Origin: Pseudomonadales bacterium
GTDB lineage: Bacteria; Pseudomonadota; Gammaproteobacteria; Pseudomonadales; Azotimanducaceae
DNA length: 64,000 nt
NCBI GenBank assembly: GCA_023300545.1
Contig: JALZVT010000034.1
Coordinates: forward strand, 1 to 64,000
Direction: 5' to 3'
Of the stretch, positions 15,513-23,167 are shown piece by piece. Position 1 is the stretch's first letter. Every line of letters begins with the position of its first letter. The notes beneath the pieces are model-generated. The model searched no databases. It was not told the DNA's origin and saw only the letters and a list, made by a program, of their open reading frames with translations. Both the position numbers and the translations under genes were made by a program.

Positions 15513-16366
15513 CGCGTATTGTTATCACCGGGTGCACCAACGGCATCGGCCGCTCGATGGCAGAAACGTTAGCGGCAAGCGACAACCACCTGATCATGGC
15601 AGTGCGCGATGTGAAGCGCGGTCACGAATTGCGGCACACCCTTACCCGAGCCAACCCAGCGGCTCAAATCGATGTTGTCGAATGCAACCTCGCCAGCCGC
15701 GGCAGTGTCGACACCTGCGCCGACCGCATACTGCGACGCTTTGGCACACTCGACGTACTGGTCAATAACGCAGGCACAATGCTGCGCCAGCCGCGCCTCG
15801 CAGAAAGCGGTTATGAGCTCACCTTTGCCACCAACCATCTGGGGCCCTTCCAACTCACCAACCGCCTGTTGCCAGCCCTCACTCACGACAACACCGCACG
15901 TATAGTCGTGGTTGCCTCTACTACGCACTATCAAGCCGACATGGATTTCAGCAACCTCACCAACGTCGACAACTACTCCATGATGCGCGCGTACTCACGA
16001 TCAAAATTGGCCAACGTGATGTTTGCCAATGCTCTGGCACGACGGTGCGCCGATACCAACGTGCGGGTTAACAGCCTGCATCCAGGCAGTATTGCCACTA
16101 ATATTCTGCCGAGCAAAAGTCTACTGTGGCGCACAATCGGTCGAACAGCGGCACTGCTTGGTATTATGAAGCCGGCTCACTTGGGCGCAGCAACCCCACT
16201 GTATTTGGCATTAGATGACCACGCTGCCGACTTGCAGGGCGCCTATCTCGACGAACATCAAATACCCCAGACCTGTGCCGCGCAGGCAAGCTCAGTGAAA
16301 CTGCAGGAACGGCTGTGGGATTTATCCGCGACGGCAACTGGCAGTTCAGAGGAACCCAATGGATAA
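15509..16366 (+). CDS. SDR, retinol-dehydrogenase/WWOX-like subgroup
   Basis: SDR of 285 residues with TGCTNGIG near the N-terminus, an R at the end of the second strand (AVRD) that favours NADP, NNAGTM, VVVASTTHY with the catalytic serine region, and a YSRSKLAN active site. The last motif and VNSLHPGSIATNI are characteristic of the retinol-dehydrogenase-like subgroup, whose bacterial members have broad carbonyl substrates. It overlaps the upstream membrane-protein gene by ATGA and the downstream DUF2628 gene by 8 bases, indicating translational coupling. Confidence 0.85.
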   Translation: MTRIVITGCTNGIGRSMAETLAASDNHLIMAVRDVKRGHELRHTLTRANPAAQIDVVECNLASRGSVDTCADRILRRFGTLDVLVNNAGTMLRQPRLAESGYELTFATNHLGPFQLTNRLLPALTHDNTARIVVVASTTHYQADMDFSNLTNVDNYSMMRAYSRSKLANVMFANALARRCADTNVRVNSLHPGSIATNILPSKSLLWRTIGRTAALLGIMKPAHLGAATPLYLALDDHAADLQGAYLDEHQIPQTCAAQASSVKLQERLWDLSATATGSSEEPNG

Positions 16367-16865
16367 GGTTGCCGCCTACAAAACCTTGATTGGTCCGACC
16401 CATCAAGACTACTACCTCAGCTACTTTCGCCGTGCAGAAGAGCGCGGCTACGCACCGGTCAGCTGGCACTGGCCCGTGTTCTTTGCGGGGGTATTCTGGC
16501 TACTGTGGCGCCGCCAGTACTACTGGGCGCTACTGTCTGTTGCCATTGTCTTCGCATCACAAGCGCTTGGCGGCAGTGTTGCCACGGCATTCGACTCCCA
16601 GCGGCTAGGCGCACTGGTTAACATGTTTATTACCGGGGGCTTTGGCCTTATTTATCTGCCAATGAAAGCCAACGCCATTTATTACAACTGGGCCAAGGCT
16701 GCTTTTCAGAAAATTCAGACCGAGGTACCGGCTCAGGCCGACAAGCAGTTAGAGGCGCTCACCCGCATGGGCGGCACCAACAACAACATTCCACTCGCCC
16801 TGGTGGTGTTCGTCTTTATTATGGCCATGCTGGCGGGGCCGCCTCCGGAACTCGCCAATCAATGA
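16359..16865 (+). CDS. DUF2628-type membrane protein
   Basis: A 168-residue protein with three hydrophobic stretches. The motif SWHWPVFFAGVFWLLWRRQY near residue 34 is the signature of DUF2628 proteins, small membrane proteins of unknown role found in many proteobacteria. The N-terminal about 30 residues are soluble and charged. Last gene of the SDR/membrane cluster; convergent with the TonB/TPR gene, about 30 bases apart, with no clear terminator between. Confidence 0.8.
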   Translation: MDKVAAYKTLIGPTHQDYYLSYFRRAEERGYAPVSWHWPVFFAGVFWLLWRRQYYWALLSVAIVFASQALGGSVATAFDSQRLGALVNMFITGGFGLIYLPMKANAIYYNWAKAAFQKIQTEVPAQADKQLEALTRMGGTNNNIPLALVVFVFIMAMLAGPPPELANQ

Positions 16866-16894: not shown

Positions 16895-18106
16895 TTACTG
16901 CCTGAAACTGAAGCGAACACCGCTACGTATCGGCATGGCGATTCCGTTTTCGCGATACGGTGCAAACTGCCACTTGCGAATGGCACCTAACGCCGAGCTT
17001 TCAAAAATCGCATCACTCGAGCTAACCACCTCAGCGTCAAAGACCCCACCAAGGGAGTCGATGCGGAAGTTCAGCTCAACCCAGCCTTCTTGCTGTGACG
17101 CTTCAGCGCGCCGCGGGAAGGTTGGCGCCACACTGCGCTCAACGGTCAGGTCAGACACACTAAAGATTCGATCAACACCTAGGGCTCCACCAACCGATGT
17201 CGATGATTCTGCAGCCAGCTGTTCAGCAATCGCCTGCTCTCTCACGCCCTCTTCCACCAACGCCGCTTTTTCCTGCGTTAGCTTTGCGAACTGATCGGTC
17301 ATCTTTGCAGCCTGATCCAGGCTACCCAGATTAGGCGCAATGCCTCTGGCTTGTTTCATGTATTTAGCAGACGCATCAAAGTCACCATCAAAGGCTGCTG
17401 CCTGTGATTTTGCGACAAGTCGCTGAGCGATGGTTTGAATGCCTACTGCGGCCTCTGCATTACCTGGATCAAGTCGGTTGATCCGTCGATAAGAAGACAG
17501 TGCGTTATCACCACGCGGTGACAACAACCGATCGGTCGCCAGTTGATTCACAGCACGCTGAGATAACTCCTCGAGCTTCTCAAACTTTTCAGTGCGAACC
17601 AATACACTTTGCGCGCCTGAATGCTCGGGAATCAGCACCAGAATGCTCTCTGCCGCCCGTCGCGCCTGCGCCCAGTCACTTTCGTACACAGCAGTTTCAG
17701 CATCACTTATAACGTAGCTGACCACCTTATCGAGACCTTCGCGCGCACGTTCGTCTGCAGAGTTAACCAGCACCGCTTGATGAAAGTAATATAGTGCATT
17801 GTCTGTAACTGGCTCGGTAACTCGGCCGGACGCAAAAGCGCGATCAGCAAGATCAATCCAGCTTTCAGCGCCCGCACCAGAGGCGCCTTCCGTCAACCAG
17901 ATCGCCGTTGGCATCGCTGGCAAGTCGAGTGCCGACTCGGTTTGTTCTGAGGTCAACAAAAACCCGCTAATTACCACACCCGCAACAACCAGCATGCTGG
18001 CTACGCCAAAGTTGTGCAGCAGACTGTTCGGGTTACCGGCAGCAACTGCTTCCGCATCACCGTCCAGGTTGGTTATTGATTCAATTGTTGTATCTGAATA
18101 AGTCAT
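16895..18106 (-). CDS. TPR-repeat protein with TonB C-terminal domain
   Basis: About 403 residues: a cytoplasmic N-terminus, one transmembrane helix (MLVVAGVVISGFLLT), a long helical TPR-like periplasmic region (about 70-270) and a C-terminal TonB domain (about 310-403) with the typical features AEASQQEGWVELNFRI and IRKWQFAPY. Unlike classic TonB it lacks a proline-rich spacer. It may transmit force or bind a partner in the periplasm. It is the third gene of a histidine-kinase/receiver operon. A GTG at 18115 overlaps the receiver gene stop; ATG at 18106, one base after that stop and behind GGTGAG, is the better start. Confidence 0.8.
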   Translation of the reverse strand: MTYSDTTIESITNLDGDAEAVAAGNPNSLLHNFGVASMLVVAGVVISGFLLTSEQTESALDLPAMPTAIWLTEGASGAGAESWIDLADRAFASGRVTEPVTDNALYYFHQAVLVNSADERAREGLDKVVSYVISDAETAVYESDWAQARRAAESILVLIPEHSGAQSVLVRTEKFEKLEELSQRAVNQLATDRLLSPRGDNALSSYRRINRLDPGNAEAAVGIQTIAQRLVAKSQAAAFDGDFDASAKYMKQARGIAPNLGSLDQAAKMTDQFAKLTQEKAALVEEGVREQAIAEQLAAESSTSVGGALGVDRIFSVSDLTVERSVAPTFPRRAEASQQEGWVELNFRIDSLGGVFDAEVVSSSDAIFESSALGAIRKWQFAPYRENGIAMPIRSGVRFSFRQ

Positions 18107-18107
18107 A

Positions 18108-19403
18108 TCACTCACCGCGAAGTCCTGTCAGGCCAGTTACTAGTGAAGAGGCAAAACGTTCTTTAATAGTTTTAATGCGAGCACGCACGTTGGCAAACAG
18201 GCCGCTGTTGCTCGCTTCCACGTCGGCATTTCGAGCAACGGTATAGCGCAACCGTTCACTGGAGCTGGCACACAGCTCGGCGTACTTGGCCATCGCCGAG
18301 TTCAGCCAAATTCTGGTCTGCGCGATTTGCAATGGTTTCAGCAAAAAGCGGAATATTTGTCCGTGGTTAATCAAACCAATTAACAGTGCAGCGTCGGAAC
18401 GCTCGCTGGCAATAATGGTCACCAGCTCAGGCACTTCGTGCTTGAGCGTACGAGTCAGAGCATCAATTTCTTCCTGATTCACTGCCGTGTCGGTGATGAG
18501 CACGCCAATAGGGTACTCCGACAACATCCGCAAGGCAGAATCGATTGAGTCAGCTTCGCGCACCGCATACTGTGGGCCAATCGCAAGGCTAACGCCTTCA
18601 AGCAAATCAGCATCCTGAGTCAATACCAGCACTTCCGGGTCGACCGTCGGTTTGTCGACAGGTTGCGCATCGCCAACCGTCCCATCCAATTCATCAACTA
18701 ATTTACTTTCAGAGGCTTGGGCTATGGGGTTAGTCAAATCAACAACGGCCATCTCTTGGTTCACGCTTGCAGAGTACGGCGCCGCCTCAATAGCTGAGCT
18801 ATCCGCTTTTGCGCTTACCTCTGCTTTTGCCTCTGTCTCGGCGTCCGCAGACTCATAGACCGGCTGCAGTTCAACAATCTCAGCCACTTCAAGCACCGGT
18901 ACCTCAACAGCGTCTTCAACAACGTCCATCAGTTCGATCGATTCCAGCTGTTCTTCCGGCACCGCCGCAAGTTCATTGACGCCGGCCATTTCAGACACCC
19001 GCGCCGCCTGCACCGCAAGACGAACCGCATCTCTCAGTTCGTCGGTTGGGCAGGGCTTCATCAGATAGCGGAAGACTTCACTTTCATTTATGGATGCTTC
19101 TACAGCATCCAGGTCGGCATAACCTGTGAGCAAAATTCGCATACTGCTGGGGTATTCTTCTTTCACGGTTGCCAGCAGCTCTACACCGGTCATCTCGGGC
19201 ATGCGCTGGTCAGAAACCACTACGTGCACGTCTCGCTCGGCGAGTATTTCAATGGCTTCATCGCCAGAGTTTGCCAGCAGCACTTCGTATTCGCGGCGAA
19301 ACATGGCGCGCATGGAAGTGAGAACGCGGCGTTCGTCATCGACGAACAGCAGCGCAGGGCGAACCTTGGCCTCGACACTTGGGGGAGCTGCTTCAGTTAA
19401 CAT
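18108..19403 (-). CDS. Dual-receiver response regulator without DNA-binding domain
   Basis: A 431-residue protein. The first receiver (about 16-135) is complete: acidic pair in VDDE 21-24, phospho-acceptor D65 in VVSDQRMPEMTG, T93 and K116 in LMKPCP. An acidic linker (about 150-265) leads to a second, degenerate receiver (about 270-390) that keeps an Asp in LITD and Lys in LLKPLQ but lacks the MPxxxG loop and a clear acid pair. No HTH, GGDEF, EAL or HD domain is present, so output is probably by protein contact. ATG at 19403 lies one base after the histidine-kinase stop. It is the obvious partner of that kinase. Confidence 0.85.
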   Translation of the reverse strand: MLTEAAPPSVEAKVRPALLFVDDERRVLTSMRAMFRREYEVLLANSGDEAIEILAERDVHVVVSDQRMPEMTGVELLATVKEEYPSSMRILLTGYADLDAVEASINESEVFRYLMKPCPTDELRDAVRLAVQAARVSEMAGVNELAAVPEEQLESIELMDVVEDAVEVPVLEVAEIVELQPVYESADAETEAKAEVSAKADSSAIEAAPYSASVNQEMAVVDLTNPIAQASESKLVDELDGTVGDAQPVDKPTVDPEVLVLTQDADLLEGVSLAIGPQYAVREADSIDSALRMLSEYPIGVLITDTAVNQEEIDALTRTLKHEVPELVTIIASERSDAALLIGLINHGQIFRFLLKPLQIAQTRIWLNSAMAKYAELCASSSERLRYTVARNADVEASNSGLFANVRARIKTIKERFASSLVTGLTGLRGE

Positions 19404-19404
19404 G

Positions 19405-21408
19405 TTACGCCGCCACCTCTTCGCTGCCTTGAGCGTCCGTTGCATCCGCTGCGTCCGAACCATTAGCGATAACCGCGTCACTGAAAGACGCCTGCTCTAG
19501 CAACTCAGACCCTTCTACAAGATCTGCAGCGCTAGCACCTACGATACTGACGCTTTTCTTTTCGCTGGTGTCTGCGCTTTTCGACGCGCTGCGACGAACC
19601 GGGAAGCCAAGCGTAAAACGAGTACCAACACCTTCTTTCGAATCAACCAGCAACTGGCCTTCGTGCTCTTCCACAATCTGGTGCACGATCGACAGACCAA
19701 GCCCTGTGCCTTTACCGACTGGCTTGGTTGTAAAGAACGGATCCATAATCTTCGTAAGGTTTTCTTCAGGAATACCGCAACCCGTATCTTGTACGGTCAC
19801 TTCCACCCAGTCACCACGAGCGCTGGTAGAAATATTCAGCTTGCCTTTACCGTCCATCGCCTGCACCGCGTTGGTAATCAGGTTAATGAAAACCTGGTTA
19901 AGGCGCGAAGGCGAACAATAAATGTCTGGCACATCTTGGAAGTCTTTTTCAACTTCAATACCGTACTTCCAAAGGTTTTTCGTAATAACCAGAGTCTTCT
20001 GAATGCCATCGACCACGTTAAAGCGATCTTCGGCAGCGCGATCCAAACGCGAGAAGTCTTTCAAGCTCTGCACCAGCTCACTGATCTGGTGCAGACCATC
20101 AACACTGTCTTTCGACAGCTCAGAAATCTCCTGTGCGTTCTCTGTAATAATTTCAGGGTCTAGCAGATGTCGTTTGTTCTCTAGGTGCTTGAGCGCTCGC
20201 TTTACATCAACTTCGCTCTGGGCCTCTACCAACGGCATCGTTGCCTCTAGATAAACTTCCATTTCAGTAACCGCTTCTGCGGTCATACTGGTGTTGTTAA
20301 GTACATAAAGCAGCGGCGTGTTGATCTCGTGCATCACGCCGGCAACCAACTGACCCAGCGAAGACATCTTCTCCGCCTGCACTAACTGTACCTGTGATTC
20401 TGTAAGGTCATTCATCGCAAGCTCGAGATCTTTAGTGCGATCATGCACCCGGTCTTCCAGCTCATCATGCGATTCGTTGAGTTCCTTGTGCGAATGCCCA
20501 AGACGTACGCCAAAGTAACCAAGCACCAGTAACAACATCACGGTGTACACGTTAAGCAACACACGAGCGTCGTTGACTGCAAACAAGCCCTGAACGTAAG
20601 CCGCCGCCAGAATTTCTTGCAGTTGTACGCGGGTCGCAGCAAATTCTTCCAAGCCCATACCTTGAGCGTCCTGCACCATGCCCGCACGCCACTCACTGGC
20701 ATTTTCTGCCGCGTTAGCAAATTCGGTCAAGGCGGTGCGATCGGTTTTGGTCGTGCTGTAACCCGGAGATCGGATGTCGCTCACCAACGCCCCAATCGTC
20801 GCCAGCTCGTCCTGGTTGCGACCGCCCAGTCGTTCAACTACAGATTGCTCTGCACTGAACAACAGATCAGCAAACTCGTCATTACCGCGACTGCGAAGCG
20901 TAGAGACCAGCTCTCGACCGGTGCGCTTCAACTTGTCCATGGAATCAACCAGATGAGACTGGTTAGCCCCAAAGTTACGTAAGCTGGCGGCAAGCTGTTC
21001 GCTTTGCGCCGTCAACTCAGAAAACAATTGCAGCGCCGCCTCGCCCTGAGGTTTATGACCGCGAGAGAAACCGCCAAACCAGCTACTCATTCCGCTGCGC
21101 CATTCAGCCATCGCACCAGAGGGCGCGTACACCCGAGCCACATCATTGCCAAGGCGTTGCAAAATAAATTCGTAGCGATCAGCCAACTCATAGAGCGTGC
21201 CTTTGGTGTCCGCCTTGCCAGCCCAGGTGGCTTCGATGGTTTCACCAAGCAGAGCGTCAAGATCTTTGAGATATCGCATCTCTGTCTCTATGCCGCGCTG
21301 TGCCGTTTGATTTGGGTTTCCGGACATTAGCAACAGAGCTGCAAGCAAACTGCCTGCGACAACAATGCTAAGTCCCGAGAGACCGTTTCGAAATACTGTC
21401 GAGATCAA
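19405..21408 (-). CDS. Membrane-bound sensor histidine kinase
   Basis: A 667-residue kinase. Two transmembrane helices (about 10-29 and 286-303) flank a roughly 255-residue periplasmic helical sensor. Then come a coiled coil without a recognisable HAMP, the dimerisation/phosphoacceptor box VAGVMHEINTPL with H360, and an ATPase domain with N513 (NLITNAVQAM), DTGCGIP 541-547 and GTGLGLS 567-573. The C-terminal about 60 residues are low complexity. HEINTP kinases of this group autophosphorylate the histidine and pass phosphate to a receiver. The start is TTG at 21408 with GGAAG upstream. First gene of the three-gene operon. Confidence 0.88.
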   Translation of the reverse strand: MISTVFRNGLSGLSIVVAGSLLAALLLMSGNPNQTAQRGIETEMRYLKDLDALLGETIEATWAGKADTKGTLYELADRYEFILQRLGNDVARVYAPSGAMAEWRSGMSSWFGGFSRGHKPQGEAALQLFSELTAQSEQLAASLRNFGANQSHLVDSMDKLKRTGRELVSTLRSRGNDEFADLLFSAEQSVVERLGGRNQDELATIGALVSDIRSPGYSTTKTDRTALTEFANAAENASEWRAGMVQDAQGMGLEEFAATRVQLQEILAAAYVQGLFAVNDARVLLNVYTVMLLLVLGYFGVRLGHSHKELNESHDELEDRVHDRTKDLELAMNDLTESQVQLVQAEKMSSLGQLVAGVMHEINTPLLYVLNNTSMTAEAVTEMEVYLEATMPLVEAQSEVDVKRALKHLENKRHLLDPEIITENAQEISELSKDSVDGLHQISELVQSLKDFSRLDRAAEDRFNVVDGIQKTLVITKNLWKYGIEVEKDFQDVPDIYCSPSRLNQVFINLITNAVQAMDGKGKLNISTSARGDWVEVTVQDTGCGIPEENLTKIMDPFFTTKPVGKGTGLGLSIVHQIVEEHEGQLLVDSKEGVGTRFTLGFPVRRSASKSADTSEKKSVSIVGASAADLVEGSELLEQASFSDAVIANGSDAADATDAQGSEEVAA

Positions 21409-21712: not shown

Positions 21713-21736
21713 GGGGTCAGAATTCATTCTGACCCC
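21713..21736. repeat. REP-like palindrome GGGGTCAGAAT / ATTCTGACCCC
   Basis: An 11-bp perfect inverted repeat with a 2-base centre. GGGGTCAGA...TCTGACCCC palindromes are a recurring interspersed motif in gammaproteobacteria, often near REP-associated (TnpA-like) transposases. Only this copy is seen in the window, and no transposase is adjacent. There is no T-tract, so it is not a standard terminator. Confidence 0.6.
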
Positions 21737-21819: not shown

Positions 21820-21831
21820 AACAATATTGTT
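21820..21831. promoter_or_regulatory. Candidate operator: 12-base perfect palindrome
   Basis: AACAATATTGTT is self-complementary and lies about 90 bases before the chosen P450 start. Palindromes of this size often bind dimeric regulators, but no regulator gene is adjacent and AT-rich palindromes also arise by chance. Confidence 0.3.
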
Positions 21832-21922
21832 AACTAAGTCGTTGCGCGGGAATTCTGCCTTCGCCACAATGCGGGACACGATTCGACCATCAGATGTGAC
21901 AACTAACGGAAAGCAACGACCC

Positions 21923-23167
21923 ATGAACAACCCAGTACACAAAGACCCGCAAAGCGTCTGGCAGCTCGACCTTGCTGATATCAACATCGCTGACGGCAGC
22001 CTGTTTGAGACTGAGCGTCACTGGGAATACTTCGAACGTCTGCGCAAAGAAGCCCCCGTTCACTACTGCAAAGAAAGTGAGTTTGGTCCCTACTGGTCCA
22101 TTACCCGTTTCGACGACATCAAGTGGGTCGACAAAAATCACGAACTGTTCTCTTCCGAAGGTGGCATCACTGTCGATGACGGCGCTGAAGATTTTCCACT
22201 GCCTATGTTCATCGCCATGGATCCACCCAAGCACGACCAGCAACGCGCTGTGGTCAGCCCCACTGTTGCTCCACGCAACCTGGCAGAGCTTGAAGGTACG
22301 ATCCGCGAACGCGTCTGCAACATTCTAGATTCGCTGCCTGTTGGTGAAGAGTTCGACTGGGTAGACAAGGTGAGCATTGAGCTCACCACTCAAATGCTCG
22401 CCACACTCTTTGATTTCCCGTGGGAAGATCGCCGCAAGCTCACCTGGTGGTCAGACGTTGTCACCGGCGGTCAGGTGAACAACCTGGTCGCAAGCGAAGA
22501 AGAGTGGAAAGCCGAAATGATGGAGTGCCTCGGCTACTTCATGAATTTATGGCAAGAGCGACTAAAGCAGCCGCCCGGCAATGATTTTATTTCGATGATG
22601 GTGCACGGCGCCGCCACCAAAGACATGCCGCCAGAAGAATACCTCGGCAACCTTATTCTGCTGATTGTGGGTGGCAACGACACCACCCGCAACTCGATTA
22701 CCGGCGGCATCGTCGCGCTGAATCAAAACCCCGAACAGTACGACAAGCTACGCACAAGCCCTGAGCTCATTCCAAACATGGTAAGCGAAATCATTCGCTG
22801 GCAAACCCCACTCGCACACATGCGTCGAATCGCCACCCAAGACGTTGAACTGCACGGCAAGACGATCAAGAAGGGCGAAAAAGTAATCATGTGGTACATC
22901 TCGGGCAACCGTGACGAAACCGCCTTCGAAAACCCAGACGATTTTGTCATCGACCGCAAGAACGCTCGCGCCCACGTTAGCTTTGGCTTCGGCGTGCATC
23001 GCTGCATGGGCAATCGCCTGGCAGAAATGCAGCTACGCGTACTGTGGGAAGAAATTCTCAAACGGTTCGAAAAAGTTGAAATGGTCGGTGACCCCGAGCG
23101 CAACAACTCGTCTTTCGTAAAGGGTTACCAAAAGATGATGGTACGACTGATTCCTAAGGCGGGCTAA
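21923..23167 (+). CDS. Cytochrome P450, CYP153-like (alkane/fatty-acid terminal hydroxylase group)
   Basis: A 414-residue soluble heme monooxygenase. The heme motif FGFGVHRCMGNR has ligand C361, the I-helix reads LIVGGNDTTRN (250-255), and ExxR is EIIR at 289-292. APVHYCKESEFGPYWSITRFDDI, MFIAMDPPKHDQQR and ELIPNMVSEIIRWQTPLAHMRRIA closely match what I recall of CYP153 enzymes, which hydroxylate n-alkanes and related chains at the terminal carbon. ATG at 21923 gives the expected N-terminus. No ferredoxin or ferredoxin reductase lies beside it, so electrons must come from proteins encoded elsewhere. A DoxX-like gene follows by about 24 bases. Confidence 0.9.
   Translation: MNNPVHKDPQSVWQLDLADINIADGSLFETERHWEYFERLRKEAPVHYCKESEFGPYWSITRFDDIKWVDKNHELFSSEGGITVDDGAEDFPLPMFIAMDPPKHDQQRAVVSPTVAPRNLAELEGTIRERVCNILDSLPVGEEFDWVDKVSIELTTQMLATLFDFPWEDRRKLTWWSDVVTGGQVNNLVASEEEWKAEMMECLGYFMNLWQERLKQPPGNDFISMMVHGAATKDMPPEEYLGNLILLIVGGNDTTRNSITGGIVALNQNPEQYDKLRTSPELIPNMVSEIIRWQTPLAHMRRIATQDVELHGKTIKKGEKVIMWYISGNRDETAFENPDDFVIDRKNARAHVSFGFGVHRCMGNRLAEMQLRVLWEEILKRFEKVEMVGDPERNNSSFVKGYQKMMVRLIPKAG

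Follow-up and report, generated by a model that had tools for sequence, protein, structure and literature searches.

Most response regulators of two-component systems have DNA, cyclic nucleotides or flagellar motors as their targets. FrzZ of Myxococcus xanthus has two receivers and no DNA-binding output and is fed by a CheA-type kinase, and we know of no TonB partner for it. PleD carries an intact first receiver (REC1), then a degenerate second receiver (REC2) that serves as an adaptor, and ends in a GGDEF domain. Here we analyse a three-gene operon encoding a histidine kinase, a dual-receiver protein and a protein with tetratricopeptide repeats and a TonB C-terminus (TPR-TonB), located in a stretch of 64,000 nucleotides from a Pseudomonadales bacterium of the Azotimanducaceae (assembly GCA_023300545.1, contig JALZVT010000034.1, positions 1 to 64,000; the window in the following). 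On the TonB side, one report describes GltG of the M. xanthus gliding machinery as a predicted transmembrane protein that unites FHA and TonB domains (PF00498, PF03544); TPR proteins are part of the same machine and GltG is tied to the AglRQS motor proteins (PMC3169522). The MinD tail is reported to be a short C-terminal amphipathic helix of which one copy is too weak and dimerisation gives binding (PMC8155659), and another paper has the TorS-type sensor operate with the binding protein TorT (PMC6321045).

On balance we are inclined to regard the operon as a membrane-confined two-component system with the trans-periplasmic TonB-like protein as its effector. Computation established the anatomy of the operon, its conserved gene order, receiver-TonB fusions in other genomes and the co-inheritance of REC2 with TPR-TonB, and sequence comparison gives strong, if indirect, support to the TonB-like protein as the putative partner of the receiver. 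The features are:

21408-19405, minus strand: histidine kinase, 667 residues, TTG start; transmembrane (TM) segment, periplasmic helical sensor, TM segment, HisKA/HATPase_c
20569..21321, minus strand: periplasmic all-helical sensor of the kinase, residues about 30-280; modelled, with a fold of the TorS/McpS (helical bimodular, HBM) type
20329..20331, minus strand: H360, the His of HEINTP, invariant in 32/32
19403-18108, minus strand: dual-receiver protein, 431 residues; REC1, variable linker, REC2, amphipathic tail
19209..19211, minus strand: D65, acceptor Asp of REC1, invariant in 37/37
18270..18641, minus strand: REC2, degenerate receiver, in the clade of receivers fused to TPR-TonB
18144..18203, minus strand: C-terminal basic amphipathic segment, residues 401-420, a predicted membrane-targeting sequence
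18106-16895, minus strand: TPR-TonB protein, 403 residues; short N-terminal tail, one TM segment, TPR, TonB_C
17954..18010, minus strand: predicted TM helix of this protein, residues 33-51, by sequence prediction and model
16904..17128, minus strand: TonB C-terminal domain, residues 327-401 (Pfam 1.4e-14; Foldseek)

The genes follow each other head to tail on the minus strand and one base separates each stop from the next ATG, just as a first-pass annotation made from the letters alone had stated. That annotation also rightly described the kinase as a HEINTP kinase with a large helical sensor (HEINTP at residues 360-365, sensor modelled all-helical) and the third product as a membrane-anchored TPR protein with a TonB C-terminus (one TM segment predicted, TPR solenoid modelled, TonB_C found). 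Its picture of the middle protein as one intact and one degenerate receiver stands; its statement that there is no output domain may need qualifying, as the predicted membrane-binding tail at the C-terminus is a possible output part. Its proposal of a phosphorelay that ends in a TonB-like protein and might connect sensing with envelope transport or motility is supported in part, namely for the partner of the receiver.

In other Gammaproteobacteria 32 single open reading frames (ORFs) fuse a receiver to TonB_C, in all 32 with a hydrophobic segment in between, and a TPR match is present in 31 (not in L216). The receiver adjoining the hydrophobic segment scores higher with the REC2 model than with the REC1 model in 32/32 fusions. 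Five have two receivers, the first of which scores as REC1 in four and gives a tie in L169. Response_reg is confirmed by Pfam in L169 and L177; L151 has a single REC2-type receiver without a Pfam receiver match. The records are labelled Steroidobacteraceae, Woeseiaceae, Pseudomonadales, or unplaced Gammaproteobacteria or Proteobacteria. As the fusion loci come from one scan of genome contigs that was keyed on a TonB_C peptide and of which 80 of 92 loci were kept, their number is no frequency; several fusions are near copies of one another, and the scan also re-finds loci of the window's family under public names. The 80 loci further include 17 units in which a dual receiver stands beside the TonB gene (L161 included), 15 TPR-TonB relatives with neither a fused nor a neighbouring receiver, and another 17 TonB ORFs, short or of other kinds, that lack a TPR match. 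Among 110 loci no ORF matches the kinase and TonB_C profiles together.

Two side observations concern the fusion loci. Right behind the fusion a Ser/Thr kinase gene is found in L153 (7329-8723), L159 (1999-3435) and L163 (7311-8720), overlapping the fusion stop in L153 and L163; these genes have a receiver match of varying strength, above the Pfam cut-off in L153 only. One genome harbors both types, a fusion of two receivers with TPR-TonB (L289, G742:C18) and an operon (L251, G742:C56) in which the TPR-TonB frame is broken in the assembly.

In a tree of 110 receivers one branch (100/98) unites 31 fused receivers with every one of the 18 REC2s from the window's family, and outside this branch fall 37 REC1s, 19 other REC2s and the five first receivers of the double fusions, the latter joining REC1 (99/99). 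A tree of 99 rows, which drops six near-identical REC2s (L080, L087, L089, L110, L126, L130), all REC1s but four and the first receivers of the double fusions, has a corresponding clade (100/100, branch 0.76) of 50 rows: 31 fusions, 15 family rows, L180, L186, L251 and a second L251 copy. The fusion L205 was too short for either tree. It had been predicted beforehand that the REC2s of L180, L186 and L251 join the TPR-TonB clade, and all three did; REC2s without TPR-TonB had been predicted to stay outside, and no outside row has TPR-TonB within the flanks examined. When 303 genomes of the class were searched with a model of the REC2 clade, the five best matches (97-151 bits) were three fusions and two operons, all coupled to TPR-TonB; among the 27 further loci, at 93.6 bits or less, one has a TonB_C gene, in the G601 operon with its coiled-coil type of spacer. 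The fifth match outscores the sixth by a narrow margin, and since the model was built from members of the clade their rank is partly given by construction; TonB coupling was not used in the search. Fusion and co-inheritance thus indicate that REC2 and TPR-TonB probably work together.

The gene order agrees with this. Full-length matches to the TPR-TonB profile (E <= 1e-86) are found in 20 of 206 genomes of the window's family, followed from 1e-54 on by partial matches to other TonB proteins (G012, G011, G043:C77, G000:C107). The dual-receiver profile (E <= 1e-69) finds 19 of the 206, which are the TPR-TonB genomes minus G099; this genome has its kinase and receiver genes at the usual site, broken into shorter frames. 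The TPR-TonB gene lies behind the dual receiver in 20/20 family loci, 19 of which also show the kinase (the receiver gene of G034 is divided between two contig ends, and the contig of G026 ends within the receiver gene with the kinase out of view). With 20/20 loci linked we reject a chance arrangement, and the three-gene order, which the first-pass annotation had wanted to see conserved in relatives, is so in the family. Its counter-case, a TonB/TPR gene that commonly stands alone, does not apply within the family and holds outside it for 15 relatives. Gene families of the flanks occur in at most two of the 14 neighbourhoods compared (13 loci and the window, the flanks of L080-L090 being left out): an RND pump gene recurs in the window and L042, L044 has two genes in common with L046, and what looks like one more cluster consists of ORFs antisense to the operon.

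A wider sample of 390 genomes of the taxonomic order contains the dual receiver (E <= 1e-60) in 27, of which 3 belong to the window's family, 15 to one other genus and 9 lie elsewhere. In this second genus all 15 dual-receiver genomes have the order kinase, dual receiver and TonB_C protein, the last one of 259-271 residues and with a spacer, coiled-coil-like by eye, replacing the TPR. The order kinase, dual receiver and TPR-TonB also occurs in two named assemblies (L180, L186), and L250 and L251 are further cases of kinase, dual receiver and TonB; the TPR-TonB gene of L251 is frameshifted, and its two pieces can be aligned with the L186 protein at 58% and 53% identity. Duplicates among these loci are L223/L047 and L228/L246, and L234 has the same genes as L251 and L233 as L250.

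The dual receiver matches Response_reg in two stretches (5.9e-28), and the Pfam scan gives no DNA-binding domain. REC1 has the full catalytic receiver set, as D22, D23, D65, T93 and K116 are invariant in 37/37 aligned relatives. REC2 is degenerate: it lacks one residue of the acidic pair and the Thr and retains the acceptor Asp and the Lys. At the acceptor position of REC2 most rows of the second genus, L047 and L048 have Glu, and the window's family and L135 have Asp; the Glu is possibly a fixed phospho-mimic. Behind REC2 a variable link is followed by a short basic segment at the protein end in 37/37 relatives. With a 14-residue window the lipid-binding discriminant exceeds 0.68 in 37/37 family tails versus 45/122 control C-termini and 1.34 in 30/37 versus 12/122, and with 18-residue windows the counts are 31/37 versus 27/122, the controls being C-termini of ORFs called by length among which false genes are possible. 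We therefore predict that the segment is a membrane-targeting sequence. Some of the receiver tails resemble the MinD tail.

The TPR-TonB protein combines a TonB C-terminal fold (Pfam TonB_C, 1.4e-14) with a single predicted N-terminal TM segment, as expected of a TonB transducer. Its model (mean pLDDT 82.3, pTM 0.50) has helix 29-52 as the TM segment, then helical repeats and a TonB fold, and in Foldseek the TonB domain matches the C-terminal domain (CTD) of Pseudomonas aeruginosa TonB (6fip, E 1.2e-5; 6i97, E 3.6e-5). The TPR_2 match of the window copy is weak (0.021, under its cut-off); at E <= 0.1 it is present in 7/9 aligned relatives, and here the model shows a helical solenoid with pLDDT >90. 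The part beyond the TM segment would lie in the periplasm. A feature of E. coli TonB is an SxxxH motif in the TM segment. It is absent in 19/19 TM segments seen, and since it is also absent in the ExbD-linked TonB of the same genome (L005; L255; contig C8) this absence is weak as evidence. The genome has six ExbD matches, none of them on the 64.8-kb contig (C34), in a search that covered ExbD and not ExbB.

TonB and repeat proteins of other build were also seen. L101:412-2166 of the window's own genome (G000:C107) and L070:1489-3336 encode TonB_C proteins of 584-615 residues with about 200-260 residues before one predicted TM segment; the N-terminal domain is FHA-like by eye, recalling GltG, and Pfam and NCBIfam give TonB-type matches only. 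L002 (own genome, G000:C103) and L072-L079 encode proteins of 690-783 residues with repeats like those of TPR-TonB; two of them, L002 and L072, have a Ser/Thr protein kinase domain as well, and there is no TonB_C match in any of the nine.

The kinase (HATPase_c, 3.6e-29) has intact H, N and G boxes, H360, N513, D541, G543 and G545 being invariant in 32/32 aligned kinases. No sensor domain is matched in the Pfam scan, and Foldseek alone gives nothing for the sensor model (pLDDT 83.2) at E <= 0.001. By VIA the model superimposes on TorS (3i9y) with Z 17.5 over 213 residues and on McpS (2yfb) with 16.8; the best six rows are all TorS or McpS (Z 16.1-17.5), and PilJ and McpZ (14.2-14.7) are less than 1 away from an unrelated helical row (13.9). 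As modelled, the sensor has the HBM fold of TorS and McpS. The DAHL family (PF19443) was considered for it and rejected, because there is no Pfam match and a profile comparison with the sensor of the second genus was not significant. The second-genus kinases themselves match DAHL in 5/5 scanned, in 4 above the cut-off.

From these parts we suggest the following mechanism. The kinase would sense a periplasmic signal through its TorS/McpS-type helical domain and, judging by the intact catalytic residues, phosphorylate D65 of REC1. The C-terminal amphipathic helix would hold the receiver protein at the inner membrane, and phosphorylation of REC1 could alter the pairing of the receiver proteins and hence their membrane binding, like the ATP-driven pairing of MinD. 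REC2, as a dedicated partner domain, would engage the cytoplasmic end or the TM segment of the TPR-TonB protein, an engagement that is indirectly supported because the two are one polypeptide elsewhere and because the type of REC2 follows TPR-TonB in the tree. This contact may then set whether the periplasmic TPR-TonB arm engages a partner in the outer membrane or cell wall, so that the signalling direction would be inside-out. Where the two are fused, REC2 sits at the cytoplasmic end of the TM segment; where they are separate proteins, the tail would bring REC2 to the same membrane.

Several observations weigh against a TonB-like effector under the control of the kinase. REC2 is without the residues for normal phospho-switching. 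Compared with shuffles of their own letters the tails have a hydrophobic moment of mean z 1.36, above 2 in only 5/37 (14-residue window), and the tail test is driven largely by charge. Both receiver trees rest on 124 columns and gave long-branch warnings. No TonB gene was seen behind the dual receiver in 9 of the 27 genomes of the order sample, and among 369 genomes sampled from the class the dual receiver occurs in 24 with a TonB_C gene behind it in only 3 (G000, G601, G742). A TonB gene counts as unseen on a view of 1.3-1.5 kb behind the receiver gene, which shrinks to 91 bases in L220 and to 430 in L232 and ends with the contig in G403. The kinase-receiver pair must therefore have other outputs too. 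The 15 TPR-TonB relatives in other lineages (333-489 residues) have no receiver in the ORF and no dual receiver adjoining. In the fusions, finally, the REC1 acceptor Asp (D65) is lost in 5/6 double fusions and no related kinase is found among the 19 fusion loci listed, which argues that there the association of receiver and TonB is independent of phosphorylation. By the same losses the fused proteins seem to have dropped the kinase input and kept the core of REC2, TPR and TonB, in which the REC2 acceptor Asp is retained in 35/35 fused receivers. The window operon, it seems, keeps the kinase control that the fusions gave up.

The TPR-TonB protein might instead act on the input side, as a periplasmic accessory sensor that reports the state of the outer membrane, a receptor or the cell wall to the helical sensor of the kinase, like TorT for TorS; the REC2 contact would then serve to close a feedback loop, with the real output elsewhere. 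We consider this unlikely, and it is the partnership of TorS with TorT that keeps the idea alive, as sensors of the TorS type use a binding protein (PMC6321045). Moreover, TonB third genes accompany all-helical periplasmic sensors, in the window's family by the model and in the second genus by DAHL, and the nine order-sample genomes without a TonB gene in view have kinases with CBS (four), PDC/dCache (three) or unassigned (two) sensors. What speaks for the receiver as the partner is that 32 ORFs join TonB_C to a receiver and not one joins it to this kinase, and that the type of REC2 tracks TPR-TonB in the tree.

It is still less probable that TPR-TonB is simply an energy transducer of the ordinary TonB kind, which serves one particular receptor in the outer membrane and is co-transcribed with a two-component system. 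The fold of the TonB CTD, the single N-terminal TM segment, the six ExbD matches of the genome and the existence of standalone TPR-TonB relatives would all fit such a transducer. On the contrary, there is no ExbD match on the contig, a TPR stands where the usual spacer is expected, SxxxH is missing in 19/19 TM segments (a weak point, as L005 is without it too), and the receiver has no Pfam DNA-binding domain and is itself fused to TonB_C in other genomes. It is very improbable that the genes are merely co-located, the receiver having its own target and the TPR-TonB gene riding along in the operon: many dual receivers are seen without a TonB gene and TPR-TonB relatives without receivers, and yet such a coincidence would have to account for the 20/20 linkage in the family, the 32 fusions and the REC2 clade. 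We thus continue to prefer the TonB-like protein as the effector of the system.

As regards the surroundings, the gene on the 3' side (16359-16865, plus strand) converges with the operon and that on the 5' side (21827-23167, plus strand, P450) diverges from it; therefore the three genes are alone on their strand. Scanning for promoters and terminators did not yield clearly more matches than shuffled sequence does (2 vs 2.9; 7 vs 5.7), and it is from spacing and conservation that we infer a single transcription unit, with the three genes probably transcribed together. Upstream of the kinase gene a perfect inverted repeat is present at 21713-21736. Its 24 bases have 19 copies in the own genome versus 0 for the reversed control, which makes it a dispersed repeat and not an operon-specific site.

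More tentatively, and with somewhat less confidence than for the effector reading above, we suggest a so far undescribed output class of Gammaproteobacteria in which receivers directly gate a trans-periplasmic TPR-TonB arm, either as a split operon of kinase, membrane-tethered dual receiver and TPR-TonB or as a single protein of receiver, TM segment, TPR and TonB, and by which a cytoplasmic state might be passed mechanically toward the outer membrane without transcription. Among the titles listed from the open-access literature there was none on a receiver-TonB pair, a search outside whose coverage most subscription journals lie, so that absence is unproven. A receiver tied to a TonB-ended protein that reaches through the periplasm would connect the kinase with the outer membrane by a fast route. 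Because of the fusions, the contact of receiver and TonB can be tested directly, and a MinD-like receiver tail suggests that membrane binding may be controlled by phosphorylation.

In comparison with the described systems, the sensor of the kinase is like TorS and McpS in fold by structure comparison, at 10-11% identity, and a TorT-like gene is absent from the operon. TonB energy transducers share with TPR-TonB the single TM segment and the TonB-type CTD and differ from it in that TPR-TonB has a TPR spacer and a receiver partner and no ExbD on its contig. GltG has its TonB domain joined to FHA, in place of the receiver found here, and is tied to the AglRQS motor proteins, whereas the window operon has no adjoining ExbD match. 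With the MinD tail the receiver protein shares a C-terminal basic amphipathic segment, with the reservation given by the shuffles; MinD is an ATPase, and in the receiver protein pairing would depend on phosphorylation. Like FrzZ, the dual receiver has two receivers and no DNA-binding domain. The arrangement of REC1 and REC2 is that of PleD, but instead of GGDEF there is a tail predicted to bind the membrane, together with a TPR-TonB that is either separate or fused.

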